A stretch of 35,771 bases of DNA, from the NCBI GenBank assembly GCA_031259605.1, contig JAIRLE010000185.1, forward strand, positions 1 to 35,771, read 5' to 3'. The stretch is from Zoogloeaceae bacterium (GTDB lineage: Bacteria; Pseudomonadota; Gammaproteobacteria; Burkholderiales; Rhodocyclaceae). Position 1 is the stretch's first letter. The number at the start of each line of letters is the position of its first letter. A program made the position numbers and the translations under genes. A model generated the notes under the pieces. The model was not told the origin of the DNA. It was given only the letters and a program-made list of their open reading frames with translations, and searched no databases. This document shows, piece by piece, positions 1 to 32,471 of this stretch.

Positions 1-62
1 GGATTATAGAGTCTGGCGCGGCGACGCGCAATGTTTGTTCGGGAGGGAATCGCATGAATGCT

Positions 63-90
63 CACCCTCTCCCGCAAGCGGGAGAGGGTG
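63..90. repeat. Perfect 13-bp inverted repeat (REP-like hairpin)
   Basis: The arm CACCCTCTCCCGC is followed by a 2-nt AA centre and its exact complement. This CCCTCTCCC/GGGAGAGGG style of palindrome is common in intergenic DNA of many proteobacteria. It lies 3' of lgt copy 1, just beyond a dispersed repeat, so it could end that transcript, but there is no T-tract on either side. Bases 1-62 contain no gene I can support. Confidence 0.6.
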
Positions 91-102
91 GCCCAGTCCC
101 AG

Positions 103-250
103 CAAGAAATTAGCGGCAGAGCCCTTCAGGGCTGCCGGTCTAACGTCATTGGGAAGGGGGTTCTCTCTCCTCGAGAATGGCTACGGTCGAACCCCCGGCC
201 TTCGCGCCTTTCTTACGGGCGGGGTTTCAAAAACCGGAGTTCGTTTTACG
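103..250 (+). repeat. Dispersed repeat, copy A (with internal insertion)
   Basis: It runs from CAAGAAATTAGCGGCAG to CCGGAGTTcgTTTTACG and matches copies B (10764) and C (32010). The head hairpin is GGCAGagCCC-TTCA-GGGCTGCC with two extra bases. Copy A also carries about 30 extra bases in its middle, which contain their own small inverted repeat (TTCTC...GAGAA). The right half is translated on the minus strand as the C-terminus of lgt copy 1. No transposase is encoded, and no terminal inverted repeats or target duplications are obvious. Confidence 0.85.
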
Positions 251-10748: not shown

Positions 10749-10763
10749 CACGAACTCGCTTGG

Positions 10764-10880
10764 CAAGAAATTGGCGGCAGCCCTTCAGGGCTGCCGGTCA
10801 AACTCCATTGGGAAGGGGTTTCGACCTTCGCGCCTTTCTTGCGGGCGGGGTTTCAAACCGGAGTTGCTTTTACGATGAAT
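10764..10880 (+). repeat. Dispersed repeat, copy B
   Basis: A cleaner copy of the family, about 117 bp from CAAGAAATTGGCGGCAG to TTTTACGATGAAT. The head hairpin GGCAGCCC-TTCA-GGGCTGCC is perfect. GGGGTTTC occurs twice, the second time within GGTTTcAAACC. The terminal ATGAAT is shared with copy C, and here the ATG is the start codon of slyD. Confidence 0.88.
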
Positions 10881-11402
10881 GTACAAGTCCATAAGAACAC
10901 CGTGGTCACGCTGGATTACAACGTCACCGATCTGGAAGGAGAATTGCTCGACGCGGGCCAGGAGTCGCTGGTTTATCTGCATGGCGGCTATGACGACATT
11001 TTTCCCAATATCGAAGAGGCGCTGCATGAAAAGCGCGTGGGCGATACCGTCACGCTCAAGCTGCAACCGGATAACGCCTTTGGCGAATACGACGCCAGTC
11101 TGGTGCAGGTTGAGCCGCGCGCCAGCTTTCCGCTCGGCATTGAAGTCGGCATGCAGTTCGAAGGCGCGCCGGATGGCACGGAGGACGATGATTTCATTTT
11201 GTACCGCGTGACCGAAATTACCGGCGATACGGTTGTGCTGGACGGCAATCATCCGCTGGCGGGCATGGCATTGATTTTTACCTGCACCATCACCGCCGTG
11301 CGTCCCGCCAGCACGGAAGAGATCGCGCGCGGACACGCGCGCGGCGCGGAGGACGACGACGATGACGACGACGGCAACGCGCCAGCGCGCCACTGTCACT
11401 GA
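10875..11402 (+). CDS. slyD: FKBP-type peptidyl-prolyl isomerase, SlyD-like
   Basis: Cytoplasmic two-domain chaperone and prolyl isomerase; SlyD proteins also bind nickel through a His-rich tail. It has 175 residues. The split FKBP domain begins VTLDYNVTDLEGELLD and returns at GNHPLAGMALIFTCTI, which is diagnostic, and the insert-in-flap domain lies between (NAFGEYDASLVQVEPR). The C-terminus is short and acidic (a run of seven Asp) with only a few His/Cys (RHCH), so metal binding is probably weaker than in E. coli. The frame is open far upstream, but homology starts at the ATG at 10875. That ATG and the CCGGAG before it belong to a dispersed repeat. The 3' end overlaps the next gene by 41 nt. 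Confidence 0.92.
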   Translation: MNVQVHKNTVVTLDYNVTDLEGELLDAGQESLVYLHGGYDDIFPNIEEALHEKRVGDTVTLKLQPDNAFGEYDASLVQVEPRASFPLGIEVGMQFEGAPDGTEDDDFILYRVTEITGDTVVLDGNHPLAGMALIFTCTITAVRPASTEEIARGHARGAEDDDDDDDGNAPARHCH

Positions 11403-13683: not shown

Positions 13684-14776
13684 GCACAATACCGACGCGC
13701 TTACGCAACTGACCGCCCAACTGGCAAACTGGGCGGCGGAACTTGGGTTTTCCGCGCTGGGGATTGCCGCCGTTCATGACGCGGAACTGAAAGACGCCCA
13801 TGCCCGTTATGCCGACTGGATCAAACAGGGGCGGCACGGGGAGATGGATTATATGGCGCGCAACGCCGATTTGCGCGCCCGACCGGAAGCCCTGTTGCCG
13901 GGTACGCAAAGCGTCATCAGCGTCACGCTGGCGTATTGGCCGCAACAAGGTCTTGCGCCGGCCATTTCCACCTTGGCGCATCCCGAGCGCGCCTACATTT
14001 CCCGTTACGCCTTGGGGCGCGATTATCACAAGATCATGCGCCGCCGCCTGAGCGCGCTGGCGCGGCGCATGGAAAGCGTCGTCGGTGCCTTTGCCTGGCG
14101 CGTCTGCGTGGATTCCGCGCCCGTCCTGGAAGTGGCGTTCGCCCGGCAGGGCGGTTTGGGCTGGCGCGGCAAACATGCGCTGCTGCTTTCCCGGCAAGGC
14201 TCGTTTCATTTCTTGGGCGAGCTGTATACCAGTTTGCCGCTGTCCGCCAATTTTTCCCGGACTTCGCCGCATTGCGGCACGTGTAGCCGCTGTCTGCGCG
14301 CCTGTCCCACGCAGGCGATTGTCGCGCCCTACATAGTGGACGCCCGCCGCTGCATTGCCTATCTCACCATCGAACATCCCGGAAGCATCCCGGAAACCTT
14401 GCGTCCCGCCATCGGCAACCGTATTTACGGCTGTGACGATTGCCAACTCGTCTGCCCCTGGAATCGCGCCGTTCCGGCGGGCGACACCGCTTTTTCCCCT
14501 CGGCATGGTCTTGAGACCGCCACGCTTGCCGAACTCATGGCCTGGGAAGAAAGCACGTTTCTGGACAAACTCGCGGGCAGTCCCATCCGCCGCATCGGGC
14601 ATTCGCGCTGGCTGCGCAATATCGCGGTCGCCCTGGGTAATTGCGCGTCGATCCAGCCGGACGCCTTGCGTGTCCTGAAAGCCAGGGCAGACCATCCTTC
14701 CGCGCTGGTGCGCGAGCACGTCGCCTGGGCGCTTGCGCGGAGAGAGAAGGCGAATATGGAGACGAAAACGCCGTAG
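13682..14776 (+). CDS. queG: Epoxyqueuosine reductase
   Basis: Cobalamin-dependent iron-sulfur enzyme that makes the last step of queuosine in tRNA, reducing epoxyqueuosine to queuosine. It has 364 residues. The catalytic-domain motif VDSAPVLE is near residue 143. Two [4Fe-4S] motifs follow: C198, C201, C204 and C208 (CGTCSRCLRAC), and C251, C254 and C258 (CDDCQLVC). A HEAT-like C-terminal part completes the protein. The start has a modest AAGGG about 10 nt upstream. It is divergent from tsaE with overlapping start codons, and convergent with purD (22 bp apart). Confidence 0.95.
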   Translation: MHNTDALTQLTAQLANWAAELGFSALGIAAVHDAELKDAHARYADWIKQGRHGEMDYMARNADLRARPEALLPGTQSVISVTLAYWPQQGLAPAISTLAHPERAYISRYALGRDYHKIMRRRLSALARRMESVVGAFAWRVCVDSAPVLEVAFARQGGLGWRGKHALLLSRQGSFHFLGELYTSLPLSANFSRTSPHCGTCSRCLRACPTQAIVAPYIVDARRCIAYLTIEHPGSIPETLRPAIGNRIYGCDDCQLVCPWNRAVPAGDTAFSPRHGLETATLAELMAWEESTFLDKLAGSPIRRIGHSRWLRNIAVALGNCASIQPDALRVLKARADHPSALVREHVAWALARREKANMETKTP

Positions 14777-19145: not shown

Positions 19146-19224
19146 GGAAGCGTGCCGAAGCGGAGGAAATTCCGCCCAAAGCGAGACGCAGGGGCAGCCC
19201 TGAAGGACTGCCGTTGATTTCTTG
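19146..19224 (-). repeat. Dispersed repeat, diverged copy D
   Basis: Read on the minus strand, CAAGAAATCAACGGCAG and the hairpin GGCAGTCC-TTCA-GGGCTGCC match the head of copies A-C. After that the similarity is weak (TTGGGCGGAATTTC against ATTGGGAAGGGGTTTC). The left boundary is approximate. It lies in the divergent region between dusB and gltB, upstream of the gltB promoter. Confidence 0.6.
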
Positions 19225-19246
19225 CTGCCCCGCTTTGTTCGTGTGC

Positions 19247-30627: not shown

Positions 30628-30790
30628 GAAGGTTACAAGCCGTCAATATGCCGTTGCAAGATTGAGTGGACAGGCAAAGCCTGCAAAACAAACGCCTCAC
30701 CGCAAAATTCCGCAGTCTAGGCGCAAAAACAATGTTTATTCTACTATTATCTAGTCTTGCCGCCCCAGTAATTTGCAGCGCAATTTTTTC
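30628..30790. promoter_or_regulatory. Divergent fliF / histidine-kinase intergenic region
   Basis: A 163-bp gap with an AT-rich core (TTTATTCTACTATTATCTAG) and a small hairpin CAGGC-AAA-GCCTG at 30671-30683. Promoters for both directions must lie here. I looked for sigma-54 (GG-N10-GC), sigma-28 and sigma-70 patterns and found none that is convincing. Confidence 0.35.
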
Positions 30791-32020
30791 ATGACGCCGA
30801 CCTTCACGCCCCTCCCCGACGTTCGCACGGACGCCGCCGCAACGCCGCCCGCCGAGGCAAAAGCGCAGACACTGGAATTGCAGCGGGCGTTCACCCTGTT
30901 CAACCAGGTTTCCGCCGAACTTACGCAAGCTTATGCCGCACTGCAACAGCAAGTGACTTCGCTTACCGGGGAACTCGCCGTCGCCAACGGCGAATTACGC
31001 CGCCAGTATCAGGAGAAAGAGGCGCTTTCCGAACGTTTGCGCCTGTTGCTCGACGCCTTGCCCGCCGGCGTGGTGGCGTTGAATGGCGCGGCGCGCATCA
31101 CTGAAGCCAATCCTGTTGCCCGTGACATGCTGGGCGCGAATATCGAAGGCCGCCACTGGGGTGAAGTCGCGCGCGAACTGCTCGAACCCAGCCTGACGCT
31201 GGGCGAATGGCAACTGGGAGACAAGCGCCTGAACCTCGCGGAAAGCCCGCTGGACTCTTCCGGCGGCAAATTGCTGCTGCTGCATGACATTTCCGTCGCG
31301 CACCAGATGAAGACCGAACTCGAACGCAATCAGCGTCTGGCGGCAATGGGCGAACTTGCCGCTTCACTGGCGCATCAACTGCGCACACCGCTGGCGACGG
31401 CGCTGCTTTACGCGGGCAACCTGGGGCAGGCCGAACTCTCCGACGCGGCGCGTCGCCGCTTTGCCGACAAGGTCGCCGCGCAACTCAAACGTCTGGAACG
31501 GCTGATCCAGGATGTGCTGCTCTTTGCGCGCGGCGAAAGCATAGGCCGGGACGTGATTTCCGTCGCCGATCTGTTCCTTGAAGCGGGGCAGGCGCTGGAA
31601 CCACTCCTGAAAGCGCGGGAAGTGCGGCTGGAAACACGGTCGCCCGCGTCGGACGTTCGCATCGTCGGCGGCAGAAAGGCGCTATCCGGCGCGCTGGTGA
31701 GCCTTCTGGAAAACGCCTTGCAGGTCAGCGCGCCCGGAAAGGCCATCCGGCTTTGCGCCGATTACGGCAACGATGAAATCCGCCTGTCGGTTGCGGACGA
31801 AGGTCCCGGCATCCCGAAAGATTTGCAGACGCGCATCTTCGAGCCTTTCTTCACCACCACGCCGCAGGGTACCGGACTGGGACTGCCGATCGCGCTGGGC
31901 GTCGCCCGCGCCCACGGCGGCAGCCTCACCGTCGAATCGACGCCGCCCGGCGGCGCGCGCTTCATCCTCTCGCTGCCGGCACAATCCGCCGGGAAGGAAG
32001 GCGGCAGTTATTCATCGTAA
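30791..32020 (+). CDS. PAS-containing sensor histidine kinase, FleS/FlrB-like
   Basis: A soluble two-component kinase of 409 residues. Order of parts: coiled coil about 30-85, PAS domain about 86-170 (LLDALPAGVVALNGAARI), HisKA with phospho-acceptor H195 (SLAHQLRTPLATALLYAGN), and HATPase with ENALQ, DEGPGIP and GTGLGLPIA. The lack of membrane segments and the place next to fliF fit the FleS/FlrB kinases that control class III flagellar genes. The response regulator (FleR/FlrC) that normally follows is not here. The last two codons and the stop come from repeat copy C. No clear Shine-Dalgarno is seen; a TTG 6 codons upstream is an alternative start. Confidence 0.85.
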   Translation: MTPTFTPLPDVRTDAAATPPAEAKAQTLELQRAFTLFNQVSAELTQAYAALQQQVTSLTGELAVANGELRRQYQEKEALSERLRLLLDALPAGVVALNGAARITEANPVARDMLGANIEGRHWGEVARELLEPSLTLGEWQLGDKRLNLAESPLDSSGGKLLLLHDISVAHQMKTELERNQRLAAMGELAASLAHQLRTPLATALLYAGNLGQAELSDAARRRFADKVAAQLKRLERLIQDVLLFARGESIGRDVISVADLFLEAGQALEPLLKAREVRLETRSPASDVRIVGGRKALSGALVSLLENALQVSAPGKAIRLCADYGNDEIRLSVADEGPGIPKDLQTRIFEPFFTTTPQGTGLGLPIALGVARAHGGSLTVESTPPGGARFILSLPAQSAGKEGGSYSS

Positions 32021-32125
32021 AACCAACTCCGGTTTGAAACCCCGCCCGTAAGAAAGGCGCGAAGGTCGAAACCCTTTCCCAATGACGTTAGACCGGTAGC
32101 CCTGAAGGCTGCCGCTAATTTCTTG
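32010..32125 (-). repeat. Dispersed repeat, copy C
   Basis: Minus-strand copy of the family, from CAAGAAATTAGCGGCAG (32125 end) to TTTTACGATGAAT (32010 end), closely matching copies A and B. The head hairpin has one change (GGGCTaCC). One end contains the kinase stop codon. The other abuts the broken end of an IS5-family transposase remnant. Confidence 0.88.
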
Positions 32126-32471
32126 CTTTCGTCGTATTCCGCCAGACCTTTTTTCCAGATCGCCGCGAACAGCCCCGCTTTGCCCATTGCTGGAAACGGG
32201 CATGCAGGGCAGACGAACCCGGACACTCGAACTTCTCCCGGGGAAAGGCGTTCCAGACGATTCCCGTTCGCAGCACATGCACGATCCCCGAAAAATACAG
32301 CCGGTCACTGTACTTTGCCTTCCTGCCTCCGCCCGGCTTGCGTTTGCAGCCGTGCCGCGCGTCCTGCCGATTCGCGGGCAACAGCGGCTCGACAGGCGCC
32401 CGGAATTTATCTGGAATTCCCCATGCGCGTGTCCTGACAATCTGTCGTTCCTCTTTGCCCGTTCCATTCAC
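32126..32471 (-). pseudogene. IS5-family transposase remnant (N-terminal part)
   Basis: About 115 codons resembling the N-terminus of IS5-family transposases: WGIPDKFRAPVEPLLP, then GGGRKAKYSDRLYFSGI, VHVLRTGIVWNAFPREKF and HARFQQWAK. Near 32182 the frame breaks; a single missing base restores AGLFAAIWKKGLAEYDES in the next frame. The gene is cut off right after this motif, where repeat copy C begins, so the DDE catalytic region is missing. A GTG at 32471 is the likely original start. Of the 594-bp stretch between the kinase and the next gene, the remainder (32472-32614) shows nothing I can identify beyond a weak GGGG/CCCC hairpin. Confidence 0.8.

Follow-up and report, generated by a model that had tools for sequence, protein, structure and literature searches.

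Mobile promoters and Correia-type or MITE elements are short repeats that alter the 5′ regions of genes, and most mobile elements that change expression bring promoters or break genes. Non-autonomous derivatives of IS200/IS605 elements (palindrome-associated elements) and REP/REPIN families occur in high copy number, have no coding capacity, carry hairpins near their ends and insert without target duplication beside a fixed short flank. REP/REPIN families are described as being mobilised by TnpA-REP (PMC2817692, PMC3116915, PMC8266576). ISC elements, with IscB/IsrB and a HEARO omega-RNA (RF02033), have NTGA on their 3′ side and structured RNA-like sequence from their 5′ end; the target-adjacent motif recognised by IsrB is NTGA and lies 3′ of the target, TTGA and ATGA both permitting cleavage (PMC9581776).

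Here we analyze a repeat found in a 35,771-nt stretch of DNA (‘the window’) from a Zoogloeaceae bacterium, where one copy directly precedes a slyD gene. The repeat apparently represents an abundant, undescribed family of structured mobile elements. It has all of the features listed above for IS200/IS605 derivatives and REP/REPIN families, and it shares a hairpin with the end of a resident IS605-like element. Unlike those families, it is not a 20–40 bp palindrome but a unit of ~165 nt with five or six helices, and its target, (A)TGA(A), often lies on start codons, to which the element brings its own GGAG. It resembles ISC elements in its NTGA side and its RNA-like structure, but it is much smaller and neither a HEARO covariance match nor an iscB/isrB gene was found in the searches described below. 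In contrast to mobile promoters and Correia-type or MITE elements, its junction lies exactly at the start codon, so that the ribosome-binding site is replaced rather than the promoter; it also lacks the terminal inverted repeats and target duplication of Correia-type and MITE elements. A literature search on mobile promoters, TTCAT motifs and the host group found nothing useful.

A family of structured repeats

The genome containing the window (G000) is a 2.36-Mb draft in 210 contigs, 93.7% complete. The core of the repeat’s 3′ module, GCGCCTTTCTTGCGGGCGGGGTTTCAAACCGGAGTTGCTTTTACG (10830–10874 on the plus strand in the slyD copy), has 184 matches in this genome at ≤3 mismatches, compared to none for a reversed control, and the 5′ module has 94. 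Copies B and C of the window have 99 nt in common at 93% identity. The repeat is thus confirmed as a real family, and the likeness of these two copies is far beyond chance. Family matches were present in 16 of the 61 genomes searched, all 16 from the same genus – the element was found in most sampled genomes of this genus and in none from other genera. Among GTDB contigs, an exact 37-nt pattern was restricted to MAGs titled Zoogloeaceae or Accumulibacter and to ‘Betaproteobacteria bacterium MS502-56’; the MAG series that carries it presumably originates from termite guts. A PLSDB search returned no match, and we rejected plasmid spread on this ground.

We extracted 98 copies from G000 and counted flanking bases for 96 of them (95 at the fifth base). 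Most full copies are ~165 nt and run from AGCAA(G/A)AAATTAGC(G) via hairpins to CAAACCGGAGTTGGTTTTACG, with the unit end (GGAGTTGGTTTTACG) directly before ATGA in most copies. A short form, to which copies B and C belong, has one hairpin fewer. The element is non-coding, with five or six conserved hairpin stems; AGCAAGAAATT at one end and GGTTTTACG at the other do not form an inverted repeat, and the covarying hairpins are subterminal. GGAG is kept in 88 of the 96 copies, including copies distant from gene starts. End-to-end spacing clusters at ~145 nt. Three outliers of 254, 311 and 488 nt are too short for a typical transposase gene; the idea that these ends also bound a longer, autonomous form was rejected on this ground.

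The fold of the element is conserved with covariation. We aligned 42 divergent copies taken from the genus and proposed a structure of six helices from this alignment. Its pairs were formed in 90.4% of cells, compared to 38.8–61.2% when the structure was slid along the alignment. Changes on both sides of a pair occurred in 16 of the 41 pairs (shuffle mean 7.5, a value of 16 being reached in 0 of 500 shuffles) and in 64 cells (shuffle mean 20). Compensatory changes were found in helices 1, 2 and 4 and not in helices 3, 5 and 6, and the RNAalifold consensus for the alignment is partly unlike the six-helix proposal. At C55:6103-6148, C96:5464-5509 and C186:5686-5731 of G000, plus- and minus-strand matches to the 5′ module overlap. 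These sites are solo, near-perfect palindromes of ~46 nt (GCAAGAAAT...ATTTCTTGC) that possibly constitute a separate REP-like or terminator-like family.

Besides the slyD copy, the window contains three other copies. Copy A (101–250, plus strand) has partly lost helix 4 and, as an exception to the flank pattern described below, is followed by TTGAAA. A second repeat, CCCTCTCCCGC...GCGGGAGAGGG, lies 3′ of ATGAATGC at several loci (window 48–92 and the 3′ flanks of several copies, e.g., L013, L027 and L106); before copy A stands ATGAATGCTCACCCTCTCCCGC without the element, likely an empty site within this second repeat. Nearby, two 300-nt stretches in neighbouring minus-strand open reading frames (374–673 and 1486–1785) are 77% identical and probably represent tandem paralogues. 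Partial copy D (19193–19226, minus strand) consists of the 5′ hairpin module alone. Copy C (32016–32127, minus strand) has the same short form as copy B and is followed on its own strand by ATGAAT (32015–32010). Read in reverse, copy C provides the TAA stop codon (32018–32020) of a plus-strand histidine kinase gene (30773–32020), the junction (32016–32020) reading ...TCA TCG TAA. The element can thus also end genes.

The copy upstream of slyD

Copy B (10763–10874, plus strand; the consensus first base would fall at 10762) is 112 nt long and lies immediately 5′ of slyD. It lacks helix 4, apparently lost by deletion between two GGGGTTTC direct repeats. Helix 1 (GGCGGCAGCCCTTCAGGGCTGCCG; 10773–10796, plus strand) carries compensatory changes and is conserved genus-wide, and copy B alone, as RNA, folds with z = -3.55. 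The copy ends in CCGGAGTTGCTTTTACG, and ATGAAT (10875–10880) then begins a gene for an FKBP-type, SlyD-like peptidyl-prolyl isomerase (10875–11402, plus strand; Pfam FKBP_C) that has orthologues with the same start in the genus; the best NCBIfam match of its product, PRK10737, scores under that model’s cut-off. As the original prediction for this locus had stated, the tail of the copy places GGAG at the slyD start; this candidate Shine-Dalgarno sequence (10860–10863, plus strand) lies 11 nt before the ATG. We found no sigma-70-like promoter around the copy.

The same prediction held that the repeat includes the start codon. At slyD this proved incorrect. Repeat-free relatives have the same start – ...cacgagaacagaatttaccc/ATGAATGTACA in G002 and ...cacgaaaacagaatctaccc/ATGAATGTACA in G011, compared to ...cacgaactcgcttg/repeat/ATGAATGTACA in G000 (slashes mark junctions) – and the slyD start codon thus predates the insertion. 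The ATGA at 10875–10878 (plus strand) is ancestral and is at once the start of slyD and the target next to which the element inserted. This junction is not an exact one: on the 5′ side a few bases have been altered or deleted. In G010 (L058), an independent copy of the element lies ~90 nt before the slyD start in the opposite orientation.

Insertion occurs directly 5′ of ATGA

We observed a strongly constrained 3′ flank. The bases after TTTTACG are A in 94/96 copies, T in 92/96, G in 91/96, A in 93/96 and A again in 84/95, after which the sequence is random (sixth base A22, T21, G19, C33). ATGA directly follows 85 of the 96 copies and ATGAA 75. The ATGAAT that copies B and C have in common, which the prediction had read as a shared end of the repeat, is thus a family feature as far as ATGA(A), while its final T is a coincidence. 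The 5′ flank is random among the extracted copies. Approximately 17 copies (e.g., L005, L009, L019 and L146) share AACAGG and a few similar bases past ATGA and end in ATGAACAGG(T/C)(T/G)CT; some of their 5′ flanks contain the complementary CCTGTTC, which suggests insertion into another repeated sequence.

We looked up orthologues of genes that begin at a copy, searching two chimeric protein queries against six congeners and then reading the upstream DNA. At 17 of the 19 gene-start copies tested, a repeat-free relative already has the ATG, and 16 of these 17 ancestral ATGs are ATGA. The genes, some named by Pfam/NCBIfam and the remainder by reading their sequence, are slyD, hypD, purM, ylqF, rsmD, those for dsbE-like, iorB-like, sco1-like, UPF0114, Nudix, MltD-like, transglutaminase-like, enoyl-CoA hydratase and Sel1-like proteins, two NtrC-type regulators and one uncharacterised gene. 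Because the ATG pre-exists at these sites, ATGA is mainly the insertion target rather than cargo, and the claim about the start codon fails at 16 genes in addition to slyD; it may be right at the two remaining sites.

Empty sites in repeat-free relatives showed no target duplication; several are exact, and at others a few 5′-flanking bases have been altered or lost. At purM, G015 reads ttatttcggagccttgcgc/ATGAT and G000 reads ...ccttctcgc/element/ATGAT. The iorB-like site in G012 is ccacggaaaact/ATGAACC, and the site at one NtrC-type regulator is acgagaatacccc/ATGAATG. For the other regulator, three relatives read gaggaaagacgc/ATGAAAC (one has aaggaaagacgc) and G000 reads gaggaaagacgc/element/ATGAAAC – the flank is identical, and nothing was duplicated or lost. 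Some insertions are old, as hypD and one regulator in G015 have orthologous copies in a decayed state. Terminal inverted repeats and target duplication were seen in neither the extracted copies nor the empty sites, which sets the element apart from a classical MITE derived from a DDE transposase.

Two further loci bear on gene boundaries. At L003 (G000 C109; minus-strand copy at ~13754–13873), the Nudix gene sits between two copies, runs into the 5′ end of the next one and stops at its TAG (GCAAGAAATTAG), a further case in which the repeat provides the end of a gene. At L133 (G000 C149), an open reading frame for a YgjP-like protein without its N-terminal part starts exactly at a copy’s ATG; the upstream YgjP part is absent across the repeat, and we dropped this locus as an example of intragenic insertion and did not use it as evidence.

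Association with start codons and translation

Other genomic copies abut start codons as well: about 20 of the 98 sampled copies do so (slyD and ~18 other genes in the sample), though most sampled copies do not precede a gene start. Using a simple codon-usage gene call (26 genes), we counted 277 ATGA sites on both strands of the window, of which 243 are inside genes, 23 are intergenic and 11 are at starts. Starts thus make up ~32% of tolerated sites, compared to the ~20/98 copies observed, a comparison that rests on a crude gene call in a small window and serves as an adequacy check rather than a precise test. ATGA targeting combined with loss of insertions inside coding sequence is quantitatively adequate to explain the start-codon association, and a start-seeking mechanism is unneeded. 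The idea that the element had captured slyD likewise requires no special mechanism, since starts represent about one third of tolerated ATGA sites in the window.

At gene-start copies, >100 nt now separate the native ribosome-binding region from the start codon, and its position is taken by the element’s GGAG-N11-ATG, with a spacing of 11 nt that is long. purM and asd are normally needed genes, and the element end therefore probably initiates translation at genes such as these. The suggestion that the repeat inserts as a ready-made translation start is partly supported: the element supplies a GGAG-N11 and takes the native leader away from the start codon, and an ATG was seemingly made at two sites. 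Overall, the original prediction was partly supported – right in spirit on the ribosome-binding site and wrong on the start codon for slyD and most other sites.

Relationship to IS200/IS605-type elements

Transposition by IS200/IS605 HUH enzymes is marked by a fixed one-sided target, no target duplication, no inverted repeats and subterminal hairpins, all of which characterize the element. A 15-nt hairpin segment of the 3′ module (CCTTTCTTACGGGCG) is common to the tnpA-side end of an IS605-like element in G010 (the longest match in 300 shuffles was 11 nt), and alternative hairpin forms, CGCCCTAAAGGGCG and CGCCCTGAAGGGCG, are present in both families. The anatomy and the end hairpin found in both families point to a non-autonomous element of IS200/IS605 type; we propose that it works like one, without claiming proven membership. 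The resident IS605-like elements apparently use a TTGA(C/T) flank, not TTCAT. Their ends read GGATGTCAA and GGGCGAGGCTTGCCGCGCAC(C/T)GG, and IS605-like TnpB genes sit at contig edges (the first 350 bases of G000 C144 and C128; G010 C42), which argues that a multicopy IS605 element is present.

A search with PF01797 found no intact Y1 transposase with matching ends that could partner the element: G000 yielded a single match, the decayed remnant of an IS200-like element, and G012 a gene truncated at its N-terminal end. Matches to PF07282 were rejected as mobilisers; they are IS605-like TnpB genes from elements with other ends and another target. Assignment to REP/REPIN, defined by a 20–40 bp palindrome, a conserved tetranucleotide and a TnpA-REP gene, was rejected on the ~165-nt multi-helix unit and the absence of an intact Y1 gene in G000. 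IS608-like elements have a known lagging-strand bias. Such a bias is not visible within the contigs of this draft genome, where neighbouring copies form 13 same-orientation and 17 opposite pairs.

Alternative explanations

Two genes, asd and one encoding a SpoU-type methyltransferase, suggest that the element may contribute to the start codon. In relatives, the native asd ATG is preceded by TTGAAATAC or GTTGAACAC; G000 has ATGAAACAG there, which places an extra in-frame ATG 9 nt ahead of the native start. At the methyltransferase gene, most relatives read ATG CTGA and one reads ATG ATA; in G000 the element stands between the old ATG, on its 5′ side, and a new ATG on its 3′ side. Both genes have NTGA at the insertion point in most relatives. 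Here the element may have supplied an A that created a new ATG, and its target may accordingly be read as TGA(A). Among the tested sites only these two are free of a prior ATG, and only they can reveal an element-borne A, because start codons are constrained to A. A portable translation-initiation cassette, in which the ATG or at least its A belongs to the element and insertion at NTGA makes or overwrites starts, would also fit the A at the first flank position in 94/96 copies; with a pre-existing ATG kept at 17/19 start-site insertions, and with two sites being few and open to ordinary substitution prior to insertion, we find it doubtful. It is likewise unlikely, and slightly more so, that the element manufactures translation starts – that its GGAG and terminal A, placed 5′ of TGA(A), convert NTGA to GGAG-N11-ATGA and so replace or create starts genome-wide. 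If it did, a start-making element would act also on genes likely to be essential.

Descent from ISC elements would make the repeat a miniature IscB/IsrB derivative whose fold is an omega-RNA scaffold and whose ATGA is a 3′ target-adjacent motif. The covarying, RNA-like fold, the random 5′ flank and an NTGA side that fits the IsrB motif (ATGA in 85/96 copies) are as expected of such an element. The mostly A fifth base suggests a pentamer instead, and searches with Rfam HEARO (RF02033) were negative for the window at the gathering score and, at E ≤ 1, for nine loci with intact copies and for 21 genomes; no RRXRR (PF14239) protein was found in the 21 genomes, with control genomes silent too. We did not assign the element to HEARO/ISC and regard this origin as quite improbable. 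Selection for raised expression, as opposed to a by-product of targeting, might account for placement at start codons, given the retained GGAG and the presumably important genes, such as purM and asd, that carry the element. This seems very unlikely to us: the ~20% of copies at starts does not exceed the 32% of tolerated ATGA sites there, GGAG is kept away from starts too, and slyD yielded no promoter-like site. An ancient, immobile 5′ leader or riboswitch-like regulator of unrelated genes would explain the conserved fold and the ~20 copies directly before genes, but it is hardly credible. Most sampled copies are away from gene starts, orthologues in close relatives lack the element and the flanking genes have no obvious common function; we rejected it on the copies away from genes and on the empty sites in relatives, which already contradict it.

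Mechanism and implications

We therefore consider it probable that this ~165-nt repeat moves non-autonomously, targets ATGA, survives between genes or at starts and is mobilised in trans by an HUH enzyme. The copies show insertion immediately before (A)TGA(A) and always in one orientation, which on the opposite strand corresponds to a position right after TTCA(T). Mobilisation would most likely depend on an IS200/IS605-type single-strand transposase. As ATGA occurs inside genes, between genes and on starts, intragenic insertions would be lost and the survivors would be intergenic or on starts. At slyD, insertion kept the ancestral ATGAAT, displaced the native leader and removed part of it, and translation presumably now starts from the element’s own GGAG-N11-ATG.

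An insertion target that coincides with gene starts allows a translation-initiation region to be replaced while the protein is untouched. The sampled half of the copies includes ~20 genes with a replaced leader, for which close relatives provide empty sites for comparison. The family thus offers a natural experiment in how freely ribosome-binding sites can be swapped.
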